Shown in pieces: positions 34,001 to 43,277 of a stretch of 64,000 bases of DNA (positions are counted from its first letter, which is position 1; the number at the start of each line of letters is the position of its first letter). Source of the DNA: Xanthomonas maliensis (GTDB lineage Bacteria > Pseudomonadota > Gammaproteobacteria > Xanthomonadales > Xanthomonadaceae). The position numbers and the translations under genes were made by a program. A model generated the notes under the pieces. The model saw only the letters and a list, made by a program, of their open reading frames with translations. It ran no database searches and was not told where the DNA came from. Where the stretch lies: the NCBI RefSeq assembly GCF_009192945.1, contig NZ_NSET01000021.1, forward strand, positions 124,001-188,000. Reading direction: 5' to 3'.

Positions 34001-36085
34001 ATGCAACGCCTGATTCTTGTTTCCAGCATGCTGCTCGCCCTGTCTGCCTGCGGGGACAATGCCGGGTCTGCCCCCGAAAAGGCTGCAACGCCTGCGCCAG
34101 CGGCGGCGGCACCCGCAGCGCCGCCTGCGCTGATCACCCGCGATGCGCTGTTCGGCAATCCCGAGCGTGCCAATGTCAGCATCAGCCCCGACGGCAAATA
34201 CCTCAGCTGGGTGGCGCCACTGGAGGGCGTACTCAATGTCTGGGTTGCACCGGTGGATGCGCCCGATCAGGCACGCGCGATCACCAAGGACACCGCACGC
34301 GGTATCCGCAATTATTTCTGGACCTATCAAGCCAACACCTTGCTCTACCTGCGCGACAACGGTGGCGATGAGGATTTCCATCTGTACTCGGTCAATCTGG
34401 CCGATGGCAGCAGCAAGGATCTTACCCCGTTCGACAAGACCAATGCCGAGGTGTATCGGGTCAGCGCACAGCATCCCGAATCGATCATGGTTGGCATGAA
34501 CGATCGCGATGCCAAGTGGCACGACCTGTATCGCGTGGACCTGGCCTCCGGCACGCGCACGCTGGTGCAGAAGAATACCGACAGCCTGGATACGTACCTG
34601 CTCGACGGCGACTACCGGCTGCGTTACGCCACCCGCGCTACGGACGATGCCGGCAGGGAGCTGCTGGTGCCCGATGGCCACCGCTGGAAGAGCGTGGACC
34701 GGATTCCGTTCGAGGATGTCTCCAACACTGCGCCAGACGGCCTGACCGAAGATGGCAAGACGCTGTACATGCAGGATTCGCGCAACCGCGATACCGCCGC
34801 GCTGTACGCCATCGACACCACGAGCAATGCGCGTACGTTGCTGTTCGAAAACCCGCACGCCGATGTCGGCGCCACCTTGAACGACCCCAAGACCGGCGCG
34901 ATGCAAGCGGTGTCCACCGACTATTTGCGCGAGGAGTGGAAGCCGCTGGATAACGGCATTGCCGCGGATCTGCAGAAACTCAAGTCGCTCGGCGGCGGCG
35001 ATGCCAGCGTGGCCGCGCGCACGCTCGATGACCGCATCTGGATCGTTGGCTATTCCGCGGCAGAAACCCCGCTCACCTACTACCGCTATGACCGCGCCGA
35101 TGGCGGCAAGCTGACCAAGCTGTTCTCCGCGCGACCTGCACTGGATGGCAAGCCGCTGGTGCCGATGTGGCCGCAGGAGCTGACCGCACGCGATGGCCTC
35201 AAGCTGGTCAGCTACCTCACCCTGCCCGCCGAAGCCGATACCAACCATGACGGCAAGGCCGATAAGCCGGTGCCGTTGGTGCTGTTCGTCCACGGTGGCC
35301 CGTGGGCACGTGACAGCTACGGCTACAGCCCGTACCAGCAATGGCTGGCCAACCGTGGCTATGCGGTGCTATCGGTGAACTTCCGTGGCTCCACCGGCTT
35401 CGGCAAGGCCTTCACCAATGCCGGCAATGGCGAGTGGGCCGGCAAGATGCATGACGACTTGCTCGATGCGGTGCAATGGGCGGTCAAGCAAGGCGTCACC
35501 AAGCCGGATGACGTCGCCATCATGGGGGGCAGCTACGGCGGCTACGCCACCCTGGTCGGCATGACCTTTACCCCGGACGCATTCAAATGCGGCGTGGACA
35601 TCGTGGGCCCGGCCAATCTCAACACCTTGCTCGGCACCGTACCGCCGTACTGGGCCAGCTTCTACAAGCAGCTGACCCGGCGCATGGGCGACCCCGCTAC
35701 CGAAGCCGGCAAGCAGTGGCTGGCCGAACGCTCCCCGCTCACCCATGTCGACAAGATCAGCAAGCCGCTGTTGATCGGTCAGGGCGCCAATGATCCTCGG
35801 GTCAAGCAGGCCGAAAGCGACCAGATCGTCAATGCGATGAAGGCCAAGAACATTCCGGTCACCTACGTGCTGTTCCCGGACGAAGGCCATGGCTTCCGCC
35901 GCCCGGAAAACAGCAAGGCGTTCAACGCAGTGACCGAAAGCTTCCTGAGCCAATGCCTGGGCGGTCGCTTACAACCGATCGGTGCGGATCTGGAAGGCTC
36001 CAGCATCACCGTGCCGGAAGGCGCCGACAAGATCAACGGCCTGAGCGAGGCCTTGAAGACGCATACGCAGGCGATCAAGCGGTAG
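34001..36085 (+). CDS. S9-family prolyl oligopeptidase-like lipoprotein
   Basis: 694 residues. A lipobox LSAC gives a lipidated Cys17, so the mature enzyme is anchored in the periplasm, followed by an Ala/Pro-rich linker (20-45). Residues 50-420 form the beta-propeller. The C-terminal alpha/beta-hydrolase has the nucleophile Ser511 in GGSYGGYAT, an aspartate in GANDPRV and a histidine in DEGHGF. It cleaves short peptides. It is followed by a long palindrome at 36127-36178. The last 30 residues extend past the usual S9 end and are of unknown role. Confidence 0.92.
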   Translation: MQRLILVSSMLLALSACGDNAGSAPEKAATPAPAAAAPAAPPALITRDALFGNPERANVSISPDGKYLSWVAPLEGVLNVWVAPVDAPDQARAITKDTARGIRNYFWTYQANTLLYLRDNGGDEDFHLYSVNLADGSSKDLTPFDKTNAEVYRVSAQHPESIMVGMNDRDAKWHDLYRVDLASGTRTLVQKNTDSLDTYLLDGDYRLRYATRATDDAGRELLVPDGHRWKSVDRIPFEDVSNTAPDGLTEDGKTLYMQDSRNRDTAALYAIDTTSNARTLLFENPHADVGATLNDPKTGAMQAVSTDYLREEWKPLDNGIAADLQKLKSLGGGDASVAARTLDDRIWIVGYSAAETPLTYYRYDRADGGKLTKLFSARPALDGKPLVPMWPQELTARDGLKLVSYLTLPAEADTNHDGKADKPVPLVLFVHGGPWARDSYGYSPYQQWLANRGYAVLSVNFRGSTGFGKAFTNAGNGEWAGKMHDDLLDAVQWAVKQGVTKPDDVAIMGGSYGGYATLVGMTFTPDAFKCGVDIVGPANLNTLLGTVPPYWASFYKQLTRRMGDPATEAGKQWLAERSPLTHVDKISKPLLIGQGANDPRVKQAESDQIVNAMKAKNIPVTYVLFPDEGHGFRRPENSKAFNAVTESFLSQCLGGRLQPIGADLEGSSITVPEGADKINGLSEALKTHTQAIKR

Positions 36086-36126
36086 CGACGTCGGGTCCAA
36101 GGAAGGCGCAGACCTCGACAGGCTTG

Positions 36127-36178
36127 CGATGGTATGCCGTGCGAATCCTCTAGAGAGATCGCACGGCGTACCCCATCG
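36127..36178. repeat. Long near-perfect palindrome between the S9 peptidase and the peptide locus
   Basis: About 52 bases that read nearly the same on both strands: outer arms CGATGG...CCATCG, then GCCGTGCGA paired with TCGCACGGC, centred on CTCTAGAG. Only a two-base bulge and a few central mismatches break symmetry. It could form a cruciform or a strong RNA hairpin stopping transcripts from both sides, since the flanking genes converge here; it also looks like a REP/BIME-type unit. There is no T-run. Confidence 0.6.
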
Positions 36179-36264
36179 TCCGGAGACGTTACGCCATGCG
36201 CGTTGCACGGTGCGCGACACCTGATGCGCGCATCGGTCATCGCCGTATAGGCCCGGCCAATTCG

Positions 36265-37497
36265 CTATCCGCGCAAGGGACCCGAGTCGGCACCTTCGAT
36301 ATCCACTGCCGAAGTCTGTTCTGGGTCGCCGTCCGGCAACGACCAGATCCTTCCATCCGGATCCAGCTCCGTGGTGACCATGTGCGCACCGCGCAGGCCG
36401 AACCCGCACACCGCCAAGACGCCTTGCGTGATGGGATCCAAGGACAACGCACGCTCCAGGTACTTCTCGTTGATCGCCCCCGTGATGAAGGCGCCCAGCC
36501 CAAGATCCGTCGCAGCCAAGTAGAGCGTTTGCGACAGGTGACCAGCCTCCATCGCAATCACCCGGTAGGCCTTCGCATGCTGCCGATACTTCCAGAACGT
36601 GCGCGCGAACCGCGGCACCAGCGCGACCAGCACCTGCGCATCGGCGAACCAGTGCTGCTGCCCGACGGCTTCCATGACGAACGTGCGCGTCAAGTCGATC
36701 CCCGGCAATCGCTCCAAGACATGTGTATCGGCACGATAGTGATAGACACCCGCCGCCAATCCGACCACGTTTTGCACGAGCAGATAGGCCTCGATCGGAT
36801 GCAAGCCGCCGCCGGAAGGAACACTCTTCTTGAGGAACACCAGGTCCTCCCCAATCTTGATGCTCGACTTGGCGGCGAAAACACGCTGCAGCATGTGGGA
36901 GAGGGTTTCGAGGGGCAGCGCACGATCGAGGTCGAAGTTGCGGCAAGTAACCCTGCGCCCGAGCAGCGCATCGAAATCGCCATAGACGACCGTCGGGAGC
37001 GTCACTACCTGGTCGGCGGCGATAGCGCGCTCCTCCGCTTCCGCCGGAGGGGGCCCAAGCGTCCGCCGCATTTGTTCTATCGTCTCGGTCCCCGAATCCT
37101 GGGAATTCTTGACCGAATCGACCCCCTCCCAGCGGGTGAAGGCATGCAGCACGGCCGCGAGCGGATGCCAGTGTGCTGCCCGCAGCCTGTTGTCCTGCAG
37201 CGCGGCTGAAGATTCGGGTTGCGACTCGTCCAACACCAGACCCACCGAGATCAAGCGATCGACGACCGCTGCGTCGCAGTCTAAGGACGACCGCTCGGTC
37301 CAGCGGTTCGCACTCAGCAACCCAAGCGCTTCGCGCTCCTGTCCATCCACTGGCACCGGTGCATCCAGATGTGGCGCCAAGGCCAACCACTGTAATTCAT
37401 GGCACAGTCCATTACCCCCGCGCAACAGAGATTCAACCGCGAACGTTACCTTCTCGCTCGGCTCCAACAGGAGCACCGCACATCGCTTGATACGCAT
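36265..37497 (-). CDS. SagB-type dehydrogenase of a putative peptide maturation system
   Basis: 410 residues. Residues 1-180 are a variable region, seen in the SagB-related family of 'putative peptide maturation dehydrogenases'; residues about 185-390 are a flavin nitroreductase fold. The block SVPSGGGLHPIEAYLLVQNV and the GVYHYRADTHVLERL strand are typical of SagB/ThcOx enzymes, which oxidise azolines to azoles in ribosomal peptides. GAGG, seven bases before the ATG at 37495-37497, decides the start; the TTG one codon earlier is less likely. It is divergent from the precursor-like gene. No YcaO cyclodehydratase is nearby, so its substrate bond is unknown. Confidence 0.82.
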   Translation of the reverse strand: MRIKRCAVLLLEPSEKVTFAVESLLRGGNGLCHELQWLALAPHLDAPVPVDGQEREALGLLSANRWTERSSLDCDAAVVDRLISVGLVLDESQPESSAALQDNRLRAAHWHPLAAVLHAFTRWEGVDSVKNSQDSGTETIEQMRRTLGPPPAEAEERAIAADQVVTLPTVVYGDFDALLGRRVTCRNFDLDRALPLETLSHMLQRVFAAKSSIKIGEDLVFLKKSVPSGGGLHPIEAYLLVQNVVGLAAGVYHYRADTHVLERLPGIDLTRTFVMEAVGQQHWFADAQVLVALVPRFARTFWKYRQHAKAYRVIAMEAGHLSQTLYLAATDLGLGAFITGAINEKYLERALSLDPITQGVLAVCGFGLRGAHMVTTELDPDGRIWSLPDGDPEQTSAVDIEGADSGPLRG

Positions 37498-37589
37498 CAA
37501 AATTCCTCGGTCCTACCTACTAAGTTGAAGGCAAGCCCATAGGAAGGCGACACCTTGTAGTCGTAAACATCGCCAGCACCAGAATGCTG

Positions 37590-37617
37590 TTGCAGAAGCT
37601 CCGCAACTGGCTATAGT
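37590..37617 (+). promoter_or_regulatory. Possible promoter of the precursor peptide gene
   Basis: TTGCAG (37590-37595), 16 bases, TATAGT (37612-37617), about 56 bases before the start codon, in a locally AT-richer region. It overlaps a GTTGC...GCAAC inverted repeat. Sequence match only. Confidence 0.35.
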
Positions 37618-37673
37618 TGCAGCACGTTTGACGCGCTCATTCTAATCTTCCTTTCGTCGTCCTTGGAGCACCG

Positions 37674-37976
37674 ATGCTTACGATGCAACCCGCAGTCGCC
37701 AAGAATCTTGTCGATCTCCTGTCCACTGACGATGCGTTCCGCGCACTGTTCGTTAGCGATACCGTAGCCGCACTCTTGCAGGCTGGTTATACGCCAGTGC
37801 CTGGTGACGACCTTGAAGTGTTCGCCAAGGAATGCTGCAAAGACATCAAGCTGGCCGATAAAGCAGCTATCGCCGCCGCCCTCGAAGCGACTCAAGCGAT
37901 GCTAATCAAGGGCATCAATCAGACCGTGCCCAGTATCGGCAGTGGGACATCTTGTGTACCACGAACGCTGAAGTAA
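37674..37976 (+). CDS. Putative RiPP precursor peptide (NHLP-related)
   Basis: 100 residues. The leader-like part has DLLSTDDAFRALFVSDTVAA, the pattern of the 'putative modified peptide' family (TIGR04509 type) related to nitrile-hydratase leader peptides. The C-terminal 20 residues (NQTVPSIGSGTSCVPRTLK) are rich in Ser, Thr and one Cys (Cys94), suitable for modification. Two further cysteines, Cys54-Cys55, lie mid-chain. GGAG five bases before the ATG at 37674 supports the start; Met4 is an alternative. It has no GG cleavage motif. It is divergent from the SagB-type dehydrogenase and convergent with the cyclase gene. Confidence 0.75.
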   Translation: MLTMQPAVAKNLVDLLSTDDAFRALFVSDTVAALLQAGYTPVPGDDLEVFAKECCKDIKLADKAAIAAALEATQAMLIKGINQTVPSIGSGTSCVPRTLK

Positions 37977-38096
37977 GCCAGCTTGTCATTTCTTCACTAG
38001 GCGCGTCATTAGAATTAATCAACGGCCTCCTGGCGTCTACGCCTTAATCCGTCGATCCACTTGCTTCTGACAAGGACGTCGGTGACTCCAATAGGA

Positions 38097-40604
38097 TCAT
38101 TTTTCGGCCCCAACCTGGGCGGTGATGGCCTTTAAATCAATGACGTTGAGCGACTGTAGGCAGTAACCACATTCGACTTCCGCATATGCCAAGCCCGCGC
38201 GCCCGGCGATCCATCCTGCTTGCAGACGCGCACGACCAACATCACCAAGTTGCTGGGCTGCCTTCATGGCAGCGACTCGCGTCTGGAAGCGCGAGGCATC
38301 ATCCAAAAATGGCTCAAGCAGCTTTAGCGCCTGGTCTGGATGGTGAGCAGCGGTAAGGCTTTCAGCTGCAACCACCGCACTGAATTCCCTGACCGGTCGA
38401 TTATCTGGCGCCCTTCCACTGGCTTCGATGCTGCGCACAATGGTCGCTGCGCCAGAGCTGTCACCTGCGCGCAATGCGATCAAGGCCGCGGCCAGCGCAG
38501 TAACGACGTCGTCTGTTGCATCCATTAATTGGTTACTCCGTAGCGCAGCTACCGCAAGCTTTGCCCCTTCACGCGCAACCTTCGACGCGGAAAGGTCGTC
38601 ACCCGCAGCCAGGTGGGCAGTTGCCAGCGGCACGTAATAACTCAGGCGATTAAATCCCTTTTGCTGATCGCTCGCGGCCATCCCGCGCTCCGCGCACGCC
38701 AGGGCGTAAGTCGCCTCACCTGCATCAATTGCGATCGCCACGCGCGTCATATCAGCATGGAAGTCATTCGGGTCCACCTGCTGCAGCAGCTGCTTTGCCA
38801 ACTGGAAATCTCGTCTTGCTGCCGCAACCGCAGCGCGGCGTACCGTGGCCGATGCATACCCGCCATCGGCGGCAGCTTTAAACGCGCGATCTGCACCAAC
38901 GTAATCGCCGAGTGCAAACAGAATTCTTCCAAATATGTCTTTGGCCACCGAGGAAGAATCCACCTTGCTCTCTGCTGAGGCTTTTGCATACGGCATAGCC
39001 TGCTTGAAGCGATTAGTGGTGTAGAAGCTGAGTGCAGCGTTATTCAGTGCGGGTTGATAGTCGGGATAAAGCTCAGCCATTTGGGCCCAGGCGTCGGCCG
39101 CTGCGAACGGATCCACAAGACGGATGCTCAGTATCTTGGCGTACATGGCCTCACGCGCCGGTAGCCGCGAGGTCAGGTTCTGGGCTGTTCGCAACGCCCG
39201 GTTCGCCTGCGGATAGTCTGCCAGGAGGAAATTCGCCCTCGCCTGACCGAGCCACGCCAGGGCGAAGTTGCTGTCGATATCGGTCGCGCTGCTATAGAAA
39301 CCGAGCGCACCCTGCGGATCGCCTTTGAAATAGCGCTTCTGACCCAGGGCGAAAGCGCGCAAGGCATCCATGCTGGCGGTCGTGACCTCCGGCAGCGGCA
39401 TCGCGTTGTCACGCACGCTACCGATGGTTTCACCCAATTGCTGGCGCAGGTCGCCCGTCACCGTATCGACCGCATCCAGCACGGACCGATTGTTCGCATA
39501 CGCGGAGCTCACCGCCAGGGTTTGCTGAGTCCGCGGGTCGATGATTTCGACCGAAAACCGCTTGCGTCCGCCGACATCCGCGATCGACGGCAACAGCACG
39601 GCATGAGCGCCGGCACGCAGTGCAACTGCTGAGGCATTCCCCCGGTCCAGTAAATCCTTGCTCGGATCTTTGCGCATCAGCCCAAGCAAACCGCGGGTTT
39701 TGTCGTCACTGAGGACATTGACGTAGCGCGACTGCTCCAGACTGATGCGGAATGCTTGATCGACCGCCCCGTCGAGCGTTGCGTTGCCTGTCAGGTTGCG
39801 CAGGTCGCCCATGACCACCCAGTCCCTTTCGGAGAACGCAATCGCAGGTTCCGGCCTGGTGAAGAACCACAGTAGGAATGCGGCAGCGGCGAAGACCACC
39901 GTCTCGGTGATCAAGGCGGACGGACGGCGCCATAACGGAATCTCGCGCCAAGCCTTGGCAGACGTCCTGGGCATGCGCAGCGGCGCAAATCCCACTTCGC
40001 CAACCTCGTAAATCTCCATCCCTGTCGGCACGCCCTTGAAACGCCAGCGGCCGTGCGACTTCCACAGCAGACGCTCGGCGCGTTCGCCCAGTTCGCGGGC
40101 AGCGCGCTGCACCAGCGATTCGGCGACGGCCGACAGCAGGATCTGTCCGGGACGGGCCATCGACATCAAGCGCGCGGCGGTGGGCTTGGCCAGTCCTTCG
40201 ACTTCCAGCGGCTTGGCCCCGATCTGCACCGCTTCGTCACTGTTGCGCCAGGTCAGCACTTCGCCGACATGCAGCCCCTGCCGGGCGTGCAGCTGCAGGT
40301 TGCGGCGCTTGCCCAACGTCAGCAGGCCCTGGGCGTAATCCAGCGCGAATCCCAGGCCATCGATCGGCCGTTCGAACAACAACAGCAATCCATCCGAACG
40401 ATCGATCAGCCGGCCGTGCCACCGCTGCTGCAGCCGCACGACCAGATGATCGTGCTCGCGAAACAGTTCGGCGGCGGCGCTATCACCGATACGCTCGACC
40501 ATGGCGGTGGAGTCGCACAGGTCGGTCAGCAGCAAGGTGCGCAAACGCGGCGCTTGGATCGCTTCCGCAGCCGCTTCCTTGCGTGCTTGCGTACCCACGG
40601 TCAT
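38097..40604 (-). CDS. Membrane nucleotidyl cyclase with TPR-like region, peptide-system type (XC_0250-like)
   Basis: 835 residues. Residues 20-200 form a class III nucleotidyl cyclase domain with metal aspartates Asp28 (LLTDLCDST) and Asp71 (RSDGLLLLF). One transmembrane helix lies at about 231-249. Residues 255-400 resemble a TolB/FlgO-type domain, and about 410-800 are tandem TPR-like helices. The layout matches the 'putative peptide modification system cyclase' family and the cGMP-forming XC_0250 of X. campestris (An et al. 2013, from memory). The purine-specifying lysine of adenylyl cyclases is not seen (LIDRSDG), fitting a non-cAMP product. The start is the ATG at 40602-40604, two bases after the GGDEF gene. 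The distal half is visibly less GC-rich than the cyclase half. Confidence 0.82.
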   Translation of the reverse strand: MTVGTQARKEAAAEAIQAPRLRTLLLTDLCDSTAMVERIGDSAAAELFREHDHLVVRLQQRWHGRLIDRSDGLLLLFERPIDGLGFALDYAQGLLTLGKRRNLQLHARQGLHVGEVLTWRNSDEAVQIGAKPLEVEGLAKPTAARLMSMARPGQILLSAVAESLVQRAARELGERAERLLWKSHGRWRFKGVPTGMEIYEVGEVGFAPLRMPRTSAKAWREIPLWRRPSALITETVVFAAAAFLLWFFTRPEPAIAFSERDWVVMGDLRNLTGNATLDGAVDQAFRISLEQSRYVNVLSDDKTRGLLGLMRKDPSKDLLDRGNASAVALRAGAHAVLLPSIADVGGRKRFSVEIIDPRTQQTLAVSSAYANNRSVLDAVDTVTGDLRQQLGETIGSVRDNAMPLPEVTTASMDALRAFALGQKRYFKGDPQGALGFYSSATDIDSNFALAWLGQARANFLLADYPQANRALRTAQNLTSRLPAREAMYAKILSIRLVDPFAAADAWAQMAELYPDYQPALNNAALSFYTTNRFKQAMPYAKASAESKVDSSSVAKDIFGRILFALGDYVGADRAFKAAADGGYASATVRRAAVAAARRDFQLAKQLLQQVDPNDFHADMTRVAIAIDAGEATYALACAERGMAASDQQKGFNRLSYYVPLATAHLAAGDDLSASKVAREGAKLAVAALRSNQLMDATDDVVTALAAALIALRAGDSSGAATIVRSIEASGRAPDNRPVREFSAVVAAESLTAAHHPDQALKLLEPFLDDASRFQTRVAAMKAAQQLGDVGRARLQAGWIAGRAGLAYAEVECGYCLQSLNVIDLKAITAQVGAEK

Positions 40605-40606
40605 CG

Positions 40607-41650
40607 CTAGCGCTTGTCCGACGGCAACGGATCGAACACATGCAGACGATTGCCCCCTTGCCGCTTGGCCTCGTACAAGGCAGCGTCTGCGCGGGTATAC
40701 CAATCGTTGTAAGAGGTGGATGCATCGATGGTGCACAGGCCCACGCTGACCGAGCAGCCGTGCTGCGCGTCGGCCATGGCGCCTTGCCGGACCTCGACCG
40801 CGTTGACGATGGATTCGGCGATGTGCCGAACCAGCTCCAGCGACCCTTGCGCCACCAGCACGCAGAACTCGTCGCCACCCAGCCGGCAGGCCAGGTCGCC
40901 TTCGGCGATCACCGAGCGCAGCGCGTGAGCGACGTTCTGCAACACGCGATCGCCGGCCAGATGGCCATGCTGATCGTTGATTTGCTTGAAACGGTCGCAG
41001 TCCAGCAGGATCAGCCCGACGCCCGGCGAGGCGCCGGTGCGGCGGCACTCCTGCAGATGCAGGGTCAGCCCGCGACGGTTTTGCAGGCCGGTCAACTCGT
41101 CGGTGCGGCTGAGCTCTTCGGTGTGGTTGAGCTGGTGCGAGGTGACGTAGAGATTGTCCAGCGCCGCCTCCAGATCGTGGTTGCGACGTCGCAGCTGGCG
41201 GATCAGCAATTGTTCGTTGTTGACCACCCGCACGATCGAGCGGCGCAGGAAATGCGCCACCGTGCCCGGATCGTGATCGACCAGGCGCTGGAAATCGGCA
41301 TGCTTCAGTTCGATCAGACGACTGTCGCTGGCGGCGATGGCACCGGCACTGCGTGCGTGATCGCCGATCAGAAGCCCGAGCTCGCCGAAGAATTCGCCCG
41401 GGCCCAGGTGTTTGAGTGTCAGGTCTTCGCCGAAGTCCAGATCGATCTGGCCGCTGAGCACGATGTACATCTGCGTGCCCACCGTGCCGCGCTCGAACAA
41501 GACCTGCCCAGCCAACACATCCTGCGTCCGTCCGAAGCGCGCAAAGAACGCAAGCTCTTCGGCGGTCATCAGCGCATGCAATCCATCGGTCAGCGTTTTG
41601 ACAACGCTACCCGTCGCTGCGACTGCGCCGGCAGTGTGATGGCAAGTCAT
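40607..41650 (-). CDS. cNMP-binding diguanylate cyclase (XC_0249-like)
   Basis: 347 residues. Residues about 25-145 are a cyclic-nucleotide-binding domain with a phosphate-binding cassette in GEFFGELGLLIGDHARSAGA. A coiled linker (about 148-180) leads to a GGDEF domain with an intact LGGDEFCVL site. The position of the inhibitory RxxD site reads AEGD, so product inhibition is probably lost. In X. campestris the homologue XC_0249 binds cGMP made by XC_0250 and makes c-di-GMP. The stop is two bases before the cyclase start, so the receptor and its supplier are made together. Confidence 0.88.
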   Translation of the reverse strand: MTCHHTAGAVAATGSVVKTLTDGLHALMTAEELAFFARFGRTQDVLAGQVLFERGTVGTQMYIVLSGQIDLDFGEDLTLKHLGPGEFFGELGLLIGDHARSAGAIAASDSRLIELKHADFQRLVDHDPGTVAHFLRRSIVRVVNNEQLLIRQLRRRNHDLEAALDNLYVTSHQLNHTEELSRTDELTGLQNRRGLTLHLQECRRTGASPGVGLILLDCDRFKQINDQHGHLAGDRVLQNVAHALRSVIAEGDLACRLGGDEFCVLVAQGSLELVRHIAESIVNAVEVRQGAMADAQHGCSVSVGLCTIDASTSYNDWYTRADAALYEAKRQGGNRLHVFDPLPSDKR

Positions 41651-41830: not shown

Positions 41831-43126
41831 TCAGGCCGCCTTGTCGCTGCGGAACTGCGCTTCTTCGGTGGAACCGCGCAAGGCCGTCGTGGATGACTGA
41901 CCTTGCTGGATCGCCTGAGTCACCGCGTCGAAGTAGCCGGTGCCGACCTCGCGCTGATGCTTGACCGCGGTAAAGCCCAGATCCGCTGCAGCGAATTCGG
42001 CTTGCTGCAATTCCACGAAGGCGCTCATCTGTCGCCGCGCATAGCCGTGTGCCAATTGGAACATGCTGTGGTTCAGCGCATGGAAGCCGGCCAGGGTGAT
42101 GAACTGGAACTTGTAGCCGTAGCTGGCCAACTCGGTCTGGAACTTGGCGATGGTGGCGTCGTCGAGGTTCTTCTTCCAATTGAAGCTGGGCGAACAGTTG
42201 TAGGCCAACAGCTTACCGGGGAATTTGGCATGGATCGCCTCGGCGAAGCGGCGGGCGAACTCCAGGTCTGGCTTGCCGGTTTCGCACCAGATCAGATCGG
42301 CATAGGGCGCATAGGCCAGGCCACGGCTGATCGCCTGCTGCAAGCCATTGCGGGTGCGGAAGAAGCCTTCGACGGTGCGCTCGCCGGTGGCGAACGGGCG
42401 ATCGTTGGCATCGACGTCGCTGGTGATCAGGTCGGCGGCTTCGGCATCGGTACGGGCGATCAACACGGTCGGCACGCCGAGCACATCGGCCGCCAGGCGC
42501 GCGGCATTCAACTTTTCGATCGCCTCACGGGTCGGCACCAGCACCTTGCCGCCCATGTGGCCGCACTTCTTGACCGACGCCAGCTGATCTTCGAAGTGCA
42601 CGCCGGCGGCACCGGCCTCGATCATCGCCTTCATCAACTCGAAGGCATTGAGCACCCCACCGAAGCCGGCCTCGGCGTCGGCGACGATCGGCTGCAGGAA
42701 GTCGATCGAATCGTCGCCCTCGGCGTGATGCAACTGATCGGCACGCAACAGTGTGTTGTTAATGCGCTTGACCACAGCCGGCACCGAATCGGCCGGGTAG
42801 AGCGACTGGTCCGGATACATCTGCCCGGCCAGGTTGGCATCGGCTGCCACCTGCCAGCCCGACAGGTAGATCGCCTTCAAGCCCGCCTTGACCTGCTGCA
42901 TGGCCTGATTGCCCGTCAACGCACCCAGCGCGTTGACGAACGGCGTGGAGTGCAGCGATGTCCACAGCTTGTCGGCGCCCAGTCGCGCCAGCGAGTGCTC
43001 GACGTGCACGGTGCCGCGCAGGCGCACCACGTCGGCGGCGGTGTAGTTGCGCGTGATCCCGGCCCAACGCGGGTCGTTGGCCCACTGCTGCTGCAGTTGT
43101 TCGGCGGTCTGCAGATTGCTGCTCAT
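41831..43126 (-). CDS. aceA: Isocitrate lyase
   Basis: 431 residues, the usual bacterial length. The signature [14 protein letters not shown] contains the catalytic cysteine, and [15 protein letters not shown] holds the metal-binding aspartate. It splits isocitrate to succinate and glyoxylate. The start is the ATG at 43124-43126 with GGAG upstream; the frame extension to 43183 has no homology. It follows aceB by 151 bases on the same strand and ends in a strong terminator. Glyoxylate is also the acceptor for PucG, so the two pathways meet. Confidence 0.97.
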
Positions 43127-43277
43127 CTTGCGTTCTCCTTGGAGTCGGACACGGCGGATGCAACGGAGGGAGTGGCCGGGCAACGCGCGGCCAGCGGCCG
43201 GCCTGGACGCCTGTGGGGCGCCCGGCAGCGAAAAAGGTGGCGGTGGAGCCGCGCGCGTCAGCGGCGCGGACGATGGA

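Follow-up and report, generated by a model that had tools for sequence, protein, structure and literature searches.

A four-gene locus within a 64,000-nucleotide window of Xanthomonas maliensis (contig NZ_NSET01000021.1, from a 5.2-Mb assembly) is a mosaic of a near-constant signaling relay and an exchanged cassette. Relatives differ little in the cyclase domain of a membrane guanylate cyclase homolog, in the adjoining cyclic nucleoside monophosphate (cNMP)-binding GGDEF protein and in the flanking genes, whereas the tetratricopeptide repeat (TPR) half of the same cyclase, a small peptide and a SagB-type dehydrogenase change jointly. The relay itself is already known as XC_0250/XC_0249 of Xanthomonas campestris; the mosaic exchange is what is new here. 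On balance, sequence comparisons incline us to read the locus as a polymorphic peptide-signaling receptor, in which a peptide oxidized by the SagB-type enzyme would be sensed by a membrane guanylate cyclase that feeds cyclic di-GMP (c-di-GMP) synthesis. The exchangeable front end has the look of a chemical language specific to strains and hints at the relay's input.

The first-pass annotation of the window had proposed a four-gene block at 36265..41650, and all four open reading frames (ORFs) are present as described (Table 1). Its assignment of three of them to the TIGR04509/TIGR04510/TIGR04511 set is borne out, with all three genes adjacent and above the curated cut-off, and the fourth protein carries the expected cNMP-binding and GGDEF domains. 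The locus had also been called a fusion of peptide maturation to a nucleotide relay, which holds as linkage in one locus, but the genes themselves are separate. The suggested PF00211 check fails for the window cyclase, which gives no match at E 0.05 (only 2 of 19 homologs match at E 0.01); its N terminus is similar to LipJ (PDB 1ybt) over the class III cyclase domain (E 1.1e-11). The dehydrogenase ORF opens with TTG-ATG, the ATG lying at 37497, and the protein scores 135.1 bits against the SagB domain TIGR03605 (cut-off 78.4). It shares a nitroreductase-fold domain with CyaGox (E 5e-16) and McbC (E 9e-9). Residues R183, T185, R187, W303, K304 and Y305 are invariant in 113 of 113 dehydrogenase homologs, and the W-K-Y motif, which has a role in McbC, adds to the resemblance to SagB, McbC and CyaGox. 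The dehydrogenase probably modifies the peptide. Because the gap between the GGDEF stop codon and the cyclase start is tiny (2 bases in the window; three bases in 26 of 27 other Xanthomonas-group loci, with an overlap in the remaining one), the two relay genes look like a single operon. The peptide gene is antisense and flanked by the cyclase and dehydrogenase genes, the commonest arrangement among 118 cyclase loci; in nine loci, including L033 and L064, peptide and dehydrogenase genes are co-stranded and face the cyclase.

Pairwise identities establish the mosaic. Types were defined by single linkage at TPR identities of at least 55%, hence only the non-TPR columns test concordance. Across 29 Xanthomonas-group loci (406 pairs), the cyclase domain, GGDEF protein and neighboring isocitrate lyase are 93%, 90% and 93% identical between types, and the TPR half, peptide and dehydrogenase 32%, 33% and 47%; within types, the last three rise to 80%, 77% and 83%. 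A second genus group, which includes Xanthomonas sp. NCPPB 1128 and F10, repeats the pattern in 18 loci (153 pairs), with between-type values of 95%, 92% and 96% for the constant parts and 30%, 35% and 44% for the variable parts, which reach 83%, 87% and 85% within types. The first group resolves into seven clusters (of 15, 6 and 4 loci, plus four singles, one a broken copy) and the second into six. Locus L194, whose cyclase is broken, was kept in the identity table as its own TPR cluster and left out of trees and pair comparisons; it is the likely cause of between-type maxima of 97% for the peptide and 99% for the dehydrogenase. The pair-identity comparison covered 103 loci having all parts. 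Among 40 pairs with at least 97% identity in the cyclase domain and at least 95% in the GGDEF protein, the TPR halves are below 45% identical in 26 and at least 55% identical in 14, with none between.

DNA profiles place the borders of the exchange. For nine pairs picked for differing types (six from the first group, two from the second and one from the Stenotrophomonas group), identity is 87-99% in the flanks and 52-59% in the cassette, where unalignable contig-end windows give a background of 53-62%. The drop falls within the cyclase gene, and recovery lies beyond the dehydrogenase gene. Six of the nine pairs have their steepest drop at cyclase residues 228-247; the remaining three have it at residues 202, 267 and 274. 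In the clearest pair, L034/L033, a 3.6-kb cassette with 52.4% identity is set between an upstream flank of 97.8%, a cyclase domain of 99.6% and a downstream flank of 98.8%, and the two cyclases are identical through residue 231, the predicted start of the membrane span. Four nominal X. arboricola strains hold three types (NL_P126; pv. juglandis and pv. guizotiae; pv. populi), and strains of differing type have cyclase domains 98-100% and GGDEF proteins 93-99% identical. Cassette types are also shared between species and between genera. Leaving members of its type aside, L064 has a TPR half closest to that of L033 from another genus group (44%), and only 29% identical to that of L200 from its own group, although the L064 and L200 cyclase domains share 97% identity. 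Downstream of the dehydrogenase genes in two loci (L048:10535-12460 and L066:10566-12491), intact 641-residue ORFs match the cyclase sensor half without the cyclase domain; these are perhaps remnants of earlier cassettes or decoy receptors.

The genes of the locus also occur together across genomes, as the first-pass annotation had proposed to check. A search of 299 genomes from the order with the three TIGR families at curated cut-offs found each family in 82 genomes; at least one was present in 84, and 80 of these 84 carry all three, a joint occurrence exceeding chance. Of the four that fall short, one has the cyclase alone (G278), one has a broken dehydrogenase with a peptide fragment next to it (G292), one has a peptide that scores under the cut-off (G277), and in one the contig ends within the cyclase (G261). 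At 109 of 118 loci, the cyclase ORF has a cNMP-GGDEF gene immediately upstream or overlapping it, in the same orientation. Among 398 sampled genomes from the phylum, eight score over the TIGR04511 cut-off, all from the same order, with weaker matches elsewhere. Linkage offers a rival account of joint exchange, in which the sensor half alone is selected, for outside ligands (plant, phage or environmental), and the peptide and dehydrogenase hitchhike. The genes are contiguous, so exchanged tracts of 3-4 kb would carry them all, and the TPR half changes fastest among the longer parts (type 1 nonsynonymous divergence, dN, 0.150 versus 0.104 for the dehydrogenase). Hitchhiking sits poorly with the joint presence of the three families and with exchange that stops near functional borders. 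It is likewise disfavored by L107, L115 and L116, each with two complete and adjacent sets of cyclase, peptide and dehydrogenase. We consider this account quite unlikely.

Divergence statistics separate the same two modules. Within genera (681 pairs), Spearman correlations of identity are 0.78 for TPR-dehydrogenase, 0.77 for TPR-peptide and 0.73 for peptide-dehydrogenase, compared with 0.19 for TPR-cyclase domain; the cyclase domain and GGDEF protein correlate at 0.76. Conditioning on the cyclase domain and GGDEF protein leaves the cassette correlations at 0.77, 0.77 and 0.73, respectively. In trees of 88 own-family loci with all parts and isocitrate lyase, the cassette-part trees share 35-48 of 85 splits mutually, those of the TPR half, peptide and dehydrogenase 44-48, and each shares 8-15 with the trees of the cyclase domain, GGDEF protein or isocitrate lyase. 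Relay and flank trees show 13-15 changes of genus label and cassette trees 19-23, as against about 55 for shuffled labels. Median synonymous divergence (dS) in type 1 is 1.36 for the TPR half and 1.12 for the dehydrogenase, versus 0.53 and 0.58 for the relay; within types generally, the TPR half and dehydrogenase have median dS values 2-3 times those of the relay. The peptide is less raised, at 0.85 in type 1 and a value equal to that of the GGDEF protein in type 8a. Higher within-type dS fits old, exchanged types. The dN/dS sets exclude L174 and L182, type 1 loci in which a full dehydrogenase was not found. The peptide gene appears genuine, since its dN is well below dS in four types (0.117 in type 1) and conservation peaks in its last 25 residues in all five types compared.

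The constant module corresponds to a relay with known biochemistry. An et al. 2013 (PMC3770947) report that XC_0250 of X. campestris makes cyclic GMP (cGMP) and that XC_0249 binds it, raising its synthesis of c-di-GMP. The window cyclase keeps D41, D71, L73, A150, L157 and A161 at the published XC_0250 numbers, and the GGDEF protein keeps the cGMP contacts F73, E90, L91, H98, V142, N145 and E146 at the same numbers, together with an intact GGDEF motif. Judged by these residues, the pair is orthologous to XC_0250/XC_0249 with its relay residues intact, and the match claimed in the first-pass annotation stands for every published catalytic and cGMP-contact position. The cNMP part also aligns with PDB 5h5o over 129 residues (232 bits), an entry titled just 'Diguanylate cyclase' that we infer to be XC_0249. 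Among the compared loci, the GGDEF protein most like the 5h5o chain is 96.9% identical to it, and the best 80 of 277 relatives include no X. campestris record.

The X. campestris locus may hold a cassette as well. XC_0253 is given as a dipeptidyl aminopeptidase in the excerpts of two papers, one of which places a lipoprotein site at LSA16-C17, and the S9 peptidase gene beside the window cassette encodes LSA-C at the XC_0253 position (counted from the Met of MQRLIL). Judging from the numbering, the XC tags leave two genes between XC_0250 and the S9 peptidase, the space that the peptide and dehydrogenase genes fill in the window. A locus-tag literature search found no paper naming XC_0251 or XC_0252. 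The text of PMC3770947 is without the words 'peptide', 'dehydrogenase' and 'operon' and terms the TPR domain of XC_0250 uncharacterized, and its excerpts do not describe the cassette or its exchange; the TPR half is still called uncharacterized in the excerpted text of a 2019 review (PMC8042644). None of the papers found names an activating input for this bacterial cGMP relay, and no paper found in the open-license literature on the relay, the families, ribosomally synthesized and post-translationally modified peptides (RiPPs) or pherotypes describes the cassette or its polymorphism.

In the mechanism we favor, a small ribosomal peptide would be oxidized by the SagB-type dehydrogenase, its C-terminal part would leave the cytoplasm, and the TPR half of the guanylate cyclase would recognize it in the periplasm. 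Binding would set cGMP synthesis by the cytoplasmic cyclase domain, cGMP would activate the adjoining cNMP-GGDEF protein, and c-di-GMP would then alter biofilm and gene expression. With a cassette that differs by strain and a relay that is shared, each type would respond chiefly to its own peptide. The variable parts would need to fit a peptide, the constant parts make and read cGMP, and we take the cassette as the specificity module of a peptide-sensing guanylate cyclase. Of the arguments for the first-pass idea that the relay senses the peptide, the mosaic is the strongest; co-occurrence, the module trees, the X. arboricola types, the charge bias described below, peptide conservation and the intact relay residues also speak for the peptide-receptor reading. 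A broader generalization, about which we are evenly divided, is that these are receptor guanylate cyclases for ribosomal pheromones, a Gram-negative peptide language in which swappable TPR sensors, joined at the membrane to one constant cGMP to c-di-GMP relay, would read oxidized peptides of many allelic types, and selection together with horizontal exchange throughout the order would keep them diverse.

Placement of the TPR half bears directly on this mechanism. The cyclase has a single predicted span, hydropathy shows one hydrophobic peak in 107 of 118 cyclases, and in 114 of 114 loci where a span is in place, the cyclase side of it carries the greater net charge. From hydropathy and the charge bias of an inside N terminus, the TPR half is predicted to lie outside, in the periplasm, where a TolB/LpoB-like stretch (by eye) would precede the repeats. 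An intracellular maturation complex would require the opposite placement, with a cytoplasmic TPR scaffold holding peptide and dehydrogenase while the cyclase reports processing. Peptide binding is frequent among TPR folds, TIGR04510 is named a 'peptide modification system cyclase', and neither a signal peptide nor an exporter was seen at the locus, but hydropathy and charge put the TPR half on the other side of the membrane, and we judge such a complex very unlikely.

The chemistry appears to depart from that of azole-forming pathways. YcaO gives no match in the X. maliensis genome, with a positive E. coli control, in agreement with its absence in the first-pass annotation. The usual azoline substrate of a SagB-type enzyme is thus not available, which sets the locus apart from YcaO-dependent azole RiPPs (TOMMs). 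A Cys-derived azole was not assumed as the common product, on the same ground and because type 2 peptides (e.g. L032) are without Cys. Elsewhere in the genome, on other contigs (L286 and L287), are two ATP-binding cassette (ABC) exporters with C39 peptidase domains, each behind an HlyD-type-looking gene (by eye); these are possible candidate exporters of small peptides. Feedback through Clp/CRP-like sites upstream of the dehydrogenase gene was discarded, with sites (at most two mismatches) at 4 of 100 loci versus 5.2 expected from shuffles.

Allelic cassettes are typical of antagonism loci too, and a bacteriocin-like peptide could be encoded here, the cassette supplying toxin, maturation enzyme and cognate recognition and the cyclase reporting or regulating. 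A related case is Os1348/OS3 of Pseudomonas sp. Os17, described in the excerpted text of PMC7726476, where a small alpha-helical NHLP-clan protein encoded with a SagB-type dehydrogenase gene affects antibiotic activity. The OS3 locus differs in having a predicted peptidase and transporters, the excerpt mentions no cyclase or GGDEF protein, and the window peptide matches the Os1348 family NF038399 weakly, below the threshold for membership (21.5 bits, cut-off 40). One genome, L072, would suit antagonism, with nine TIGR04509 and five TIGR04511 matches and a single full cyclase, but without a GGDEF gene that could be found; a purpose-built profile counts eleven peptide ORFs there, two perhaps pieces of one. 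Against antagonism, the cassette is tied to the signaling relay in 109 of 118 loci, a variable receptor half is spliced onto a conserved cyclase domain, and neither an immunity gene nor a dedicated exporter was recognized at the locus. We regard antagonism as unlikely. Multiple peptides occur at L047 as well, where five near-alike copies in tandem accompany a dehydrogenase and a cyclase, with no cNMP-GGDEF gene found. An anti-phage system was rejected, as cyclase, peptide and dehydrogenase are all without a PADLOC match. Pycsar likewise pairs a nucleotide cyclase with a cyclic-nucleotide-binding partner, but the window cyclase has no PADLOC match as PycC and its partner is an intact GGDEF protein, of which only the cNMP domain resembles Pycsar effectors (PycTIR, 1.4e-9).

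Several observations weigh against a peptide receptor acting through the relay. Neighboring genes would swap together without interacting. No GGDEF gene was found in nine of the 118 loci, although the upstream DNA exceeds 6 kb in six of these (it is under 3 kb in the other three), and the genome of L089 has a cyclase and a cNMP-GGDEF protein without peptide or dehydrogenase. Contrast between modules weakens over all 5253 pairs, to 0.73, 0.58 and 0.61 for the cassette, 0.41 for TPR-cyclase domain and 0.85 for cyclase domain-GGDEF. Discordance across genera includes at least eight pairs with TPR identity below 45% and dehydrogenase identity of at least 65% (44% and 82% for L062/L081), two pairs with TPR below 45% and peptide of at least 65%, and two with TPR of at least 55% and dehydrogenase below 60%. 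The cyclase-domain, GGDEF and isocitrate lyase trees share just 15-24 of 85 splits mutually, so the low sharing between cassette and relay trees is partly weak signal. C-terminal conservation of the type 1 peptide barely exceeds that of the rest (0.90, 0.88, 0.84). The cyclase topology is drawn solely from hydropathy; by eye, no exporter, protease or GG-type cleavage site was seen at the locus, and both C39 exporters are unlinked to it.

Strains with the agr system (Staphylococcus) or ComQXPA (Bacillus) differ jointly in signal, sensor domain and processing enzyme, and their output machinery is constant. The present locus works alike, with co-varying peptide, enzyme and sensor half and a constant relay (cross-genus exceptions aside), but is not a member of either system: its receptor would be a TPR guanylate cyclase with no histidine kinase, the enzyme is a SagB-type oxidoreductase, the hosts are Gram-negative and secretion is a proposal. 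The mosaic points to the neighboring peptide as candidate ligand of the relay and predicts type specificity. If true, RiPP-like chemistry, cGMP and c-di-GMP would be joined in one circuit, and a polymorphic peptide language, diverse even among X. arboricola strains, would be added to Gram-negative bacteria.

Table 1. Features of the locus and its flanks, in window coordinates.
Feature	Position	Strand	Part	Basis
SagB-type dehydrogenase	36265..37497	-	cassette	TIGR04511, 542.6 bits (cut-off 240)
100-residue precursor-like peptide	37674..37976	+	cassette	TIGR04509, 86.6 bits (cut-off 34)
Membrane guanylate cyclase homolog, XC_0250 ortholog	38097..40604	-		TIGR04510, 1113.7 bits (cut-off 400)
Cyclase homology domain, residues 18-195	40020..40553	-	constant relay	83-100% identity in 406 Xanthomonas-group pairs
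Predicted membrane span, residues 230-248	39861..39917	-	variable part begins	hydropathy; identity drop
Predicted periplasmic half, residues 246-835	38100..39869	-	cassette	TPR matches; identity between and within types
Variable cassette (sensor half, peptide, dehydrogenase), approximate ends	36086..39917			comparison with relatives
cNMP-binding GGDEF protein, XC_0249 ortholog	40607..41650	-	constant relay	PF00027 and PF00990 above cut-off
S9 dipeptidyl-peptidase lipoprotein gene	34001..36085	+	conserved flank, outside mechanism	PF00326
Isocitrate lyase	41831..43183	-	conserved flank, outside mechanism	NF011645, 809.9 bits

The locus decays in some strains, as seen from broken or missing parts, and other strains keep intact copies. 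The cyclase is in pieces at L194/L213 (X. phaseoli ATCC 49119), a full dehydrogenase was not found at L174/L239 (X. vasicola), and L037 has a dehydrogenase in pieces and no cyclase.
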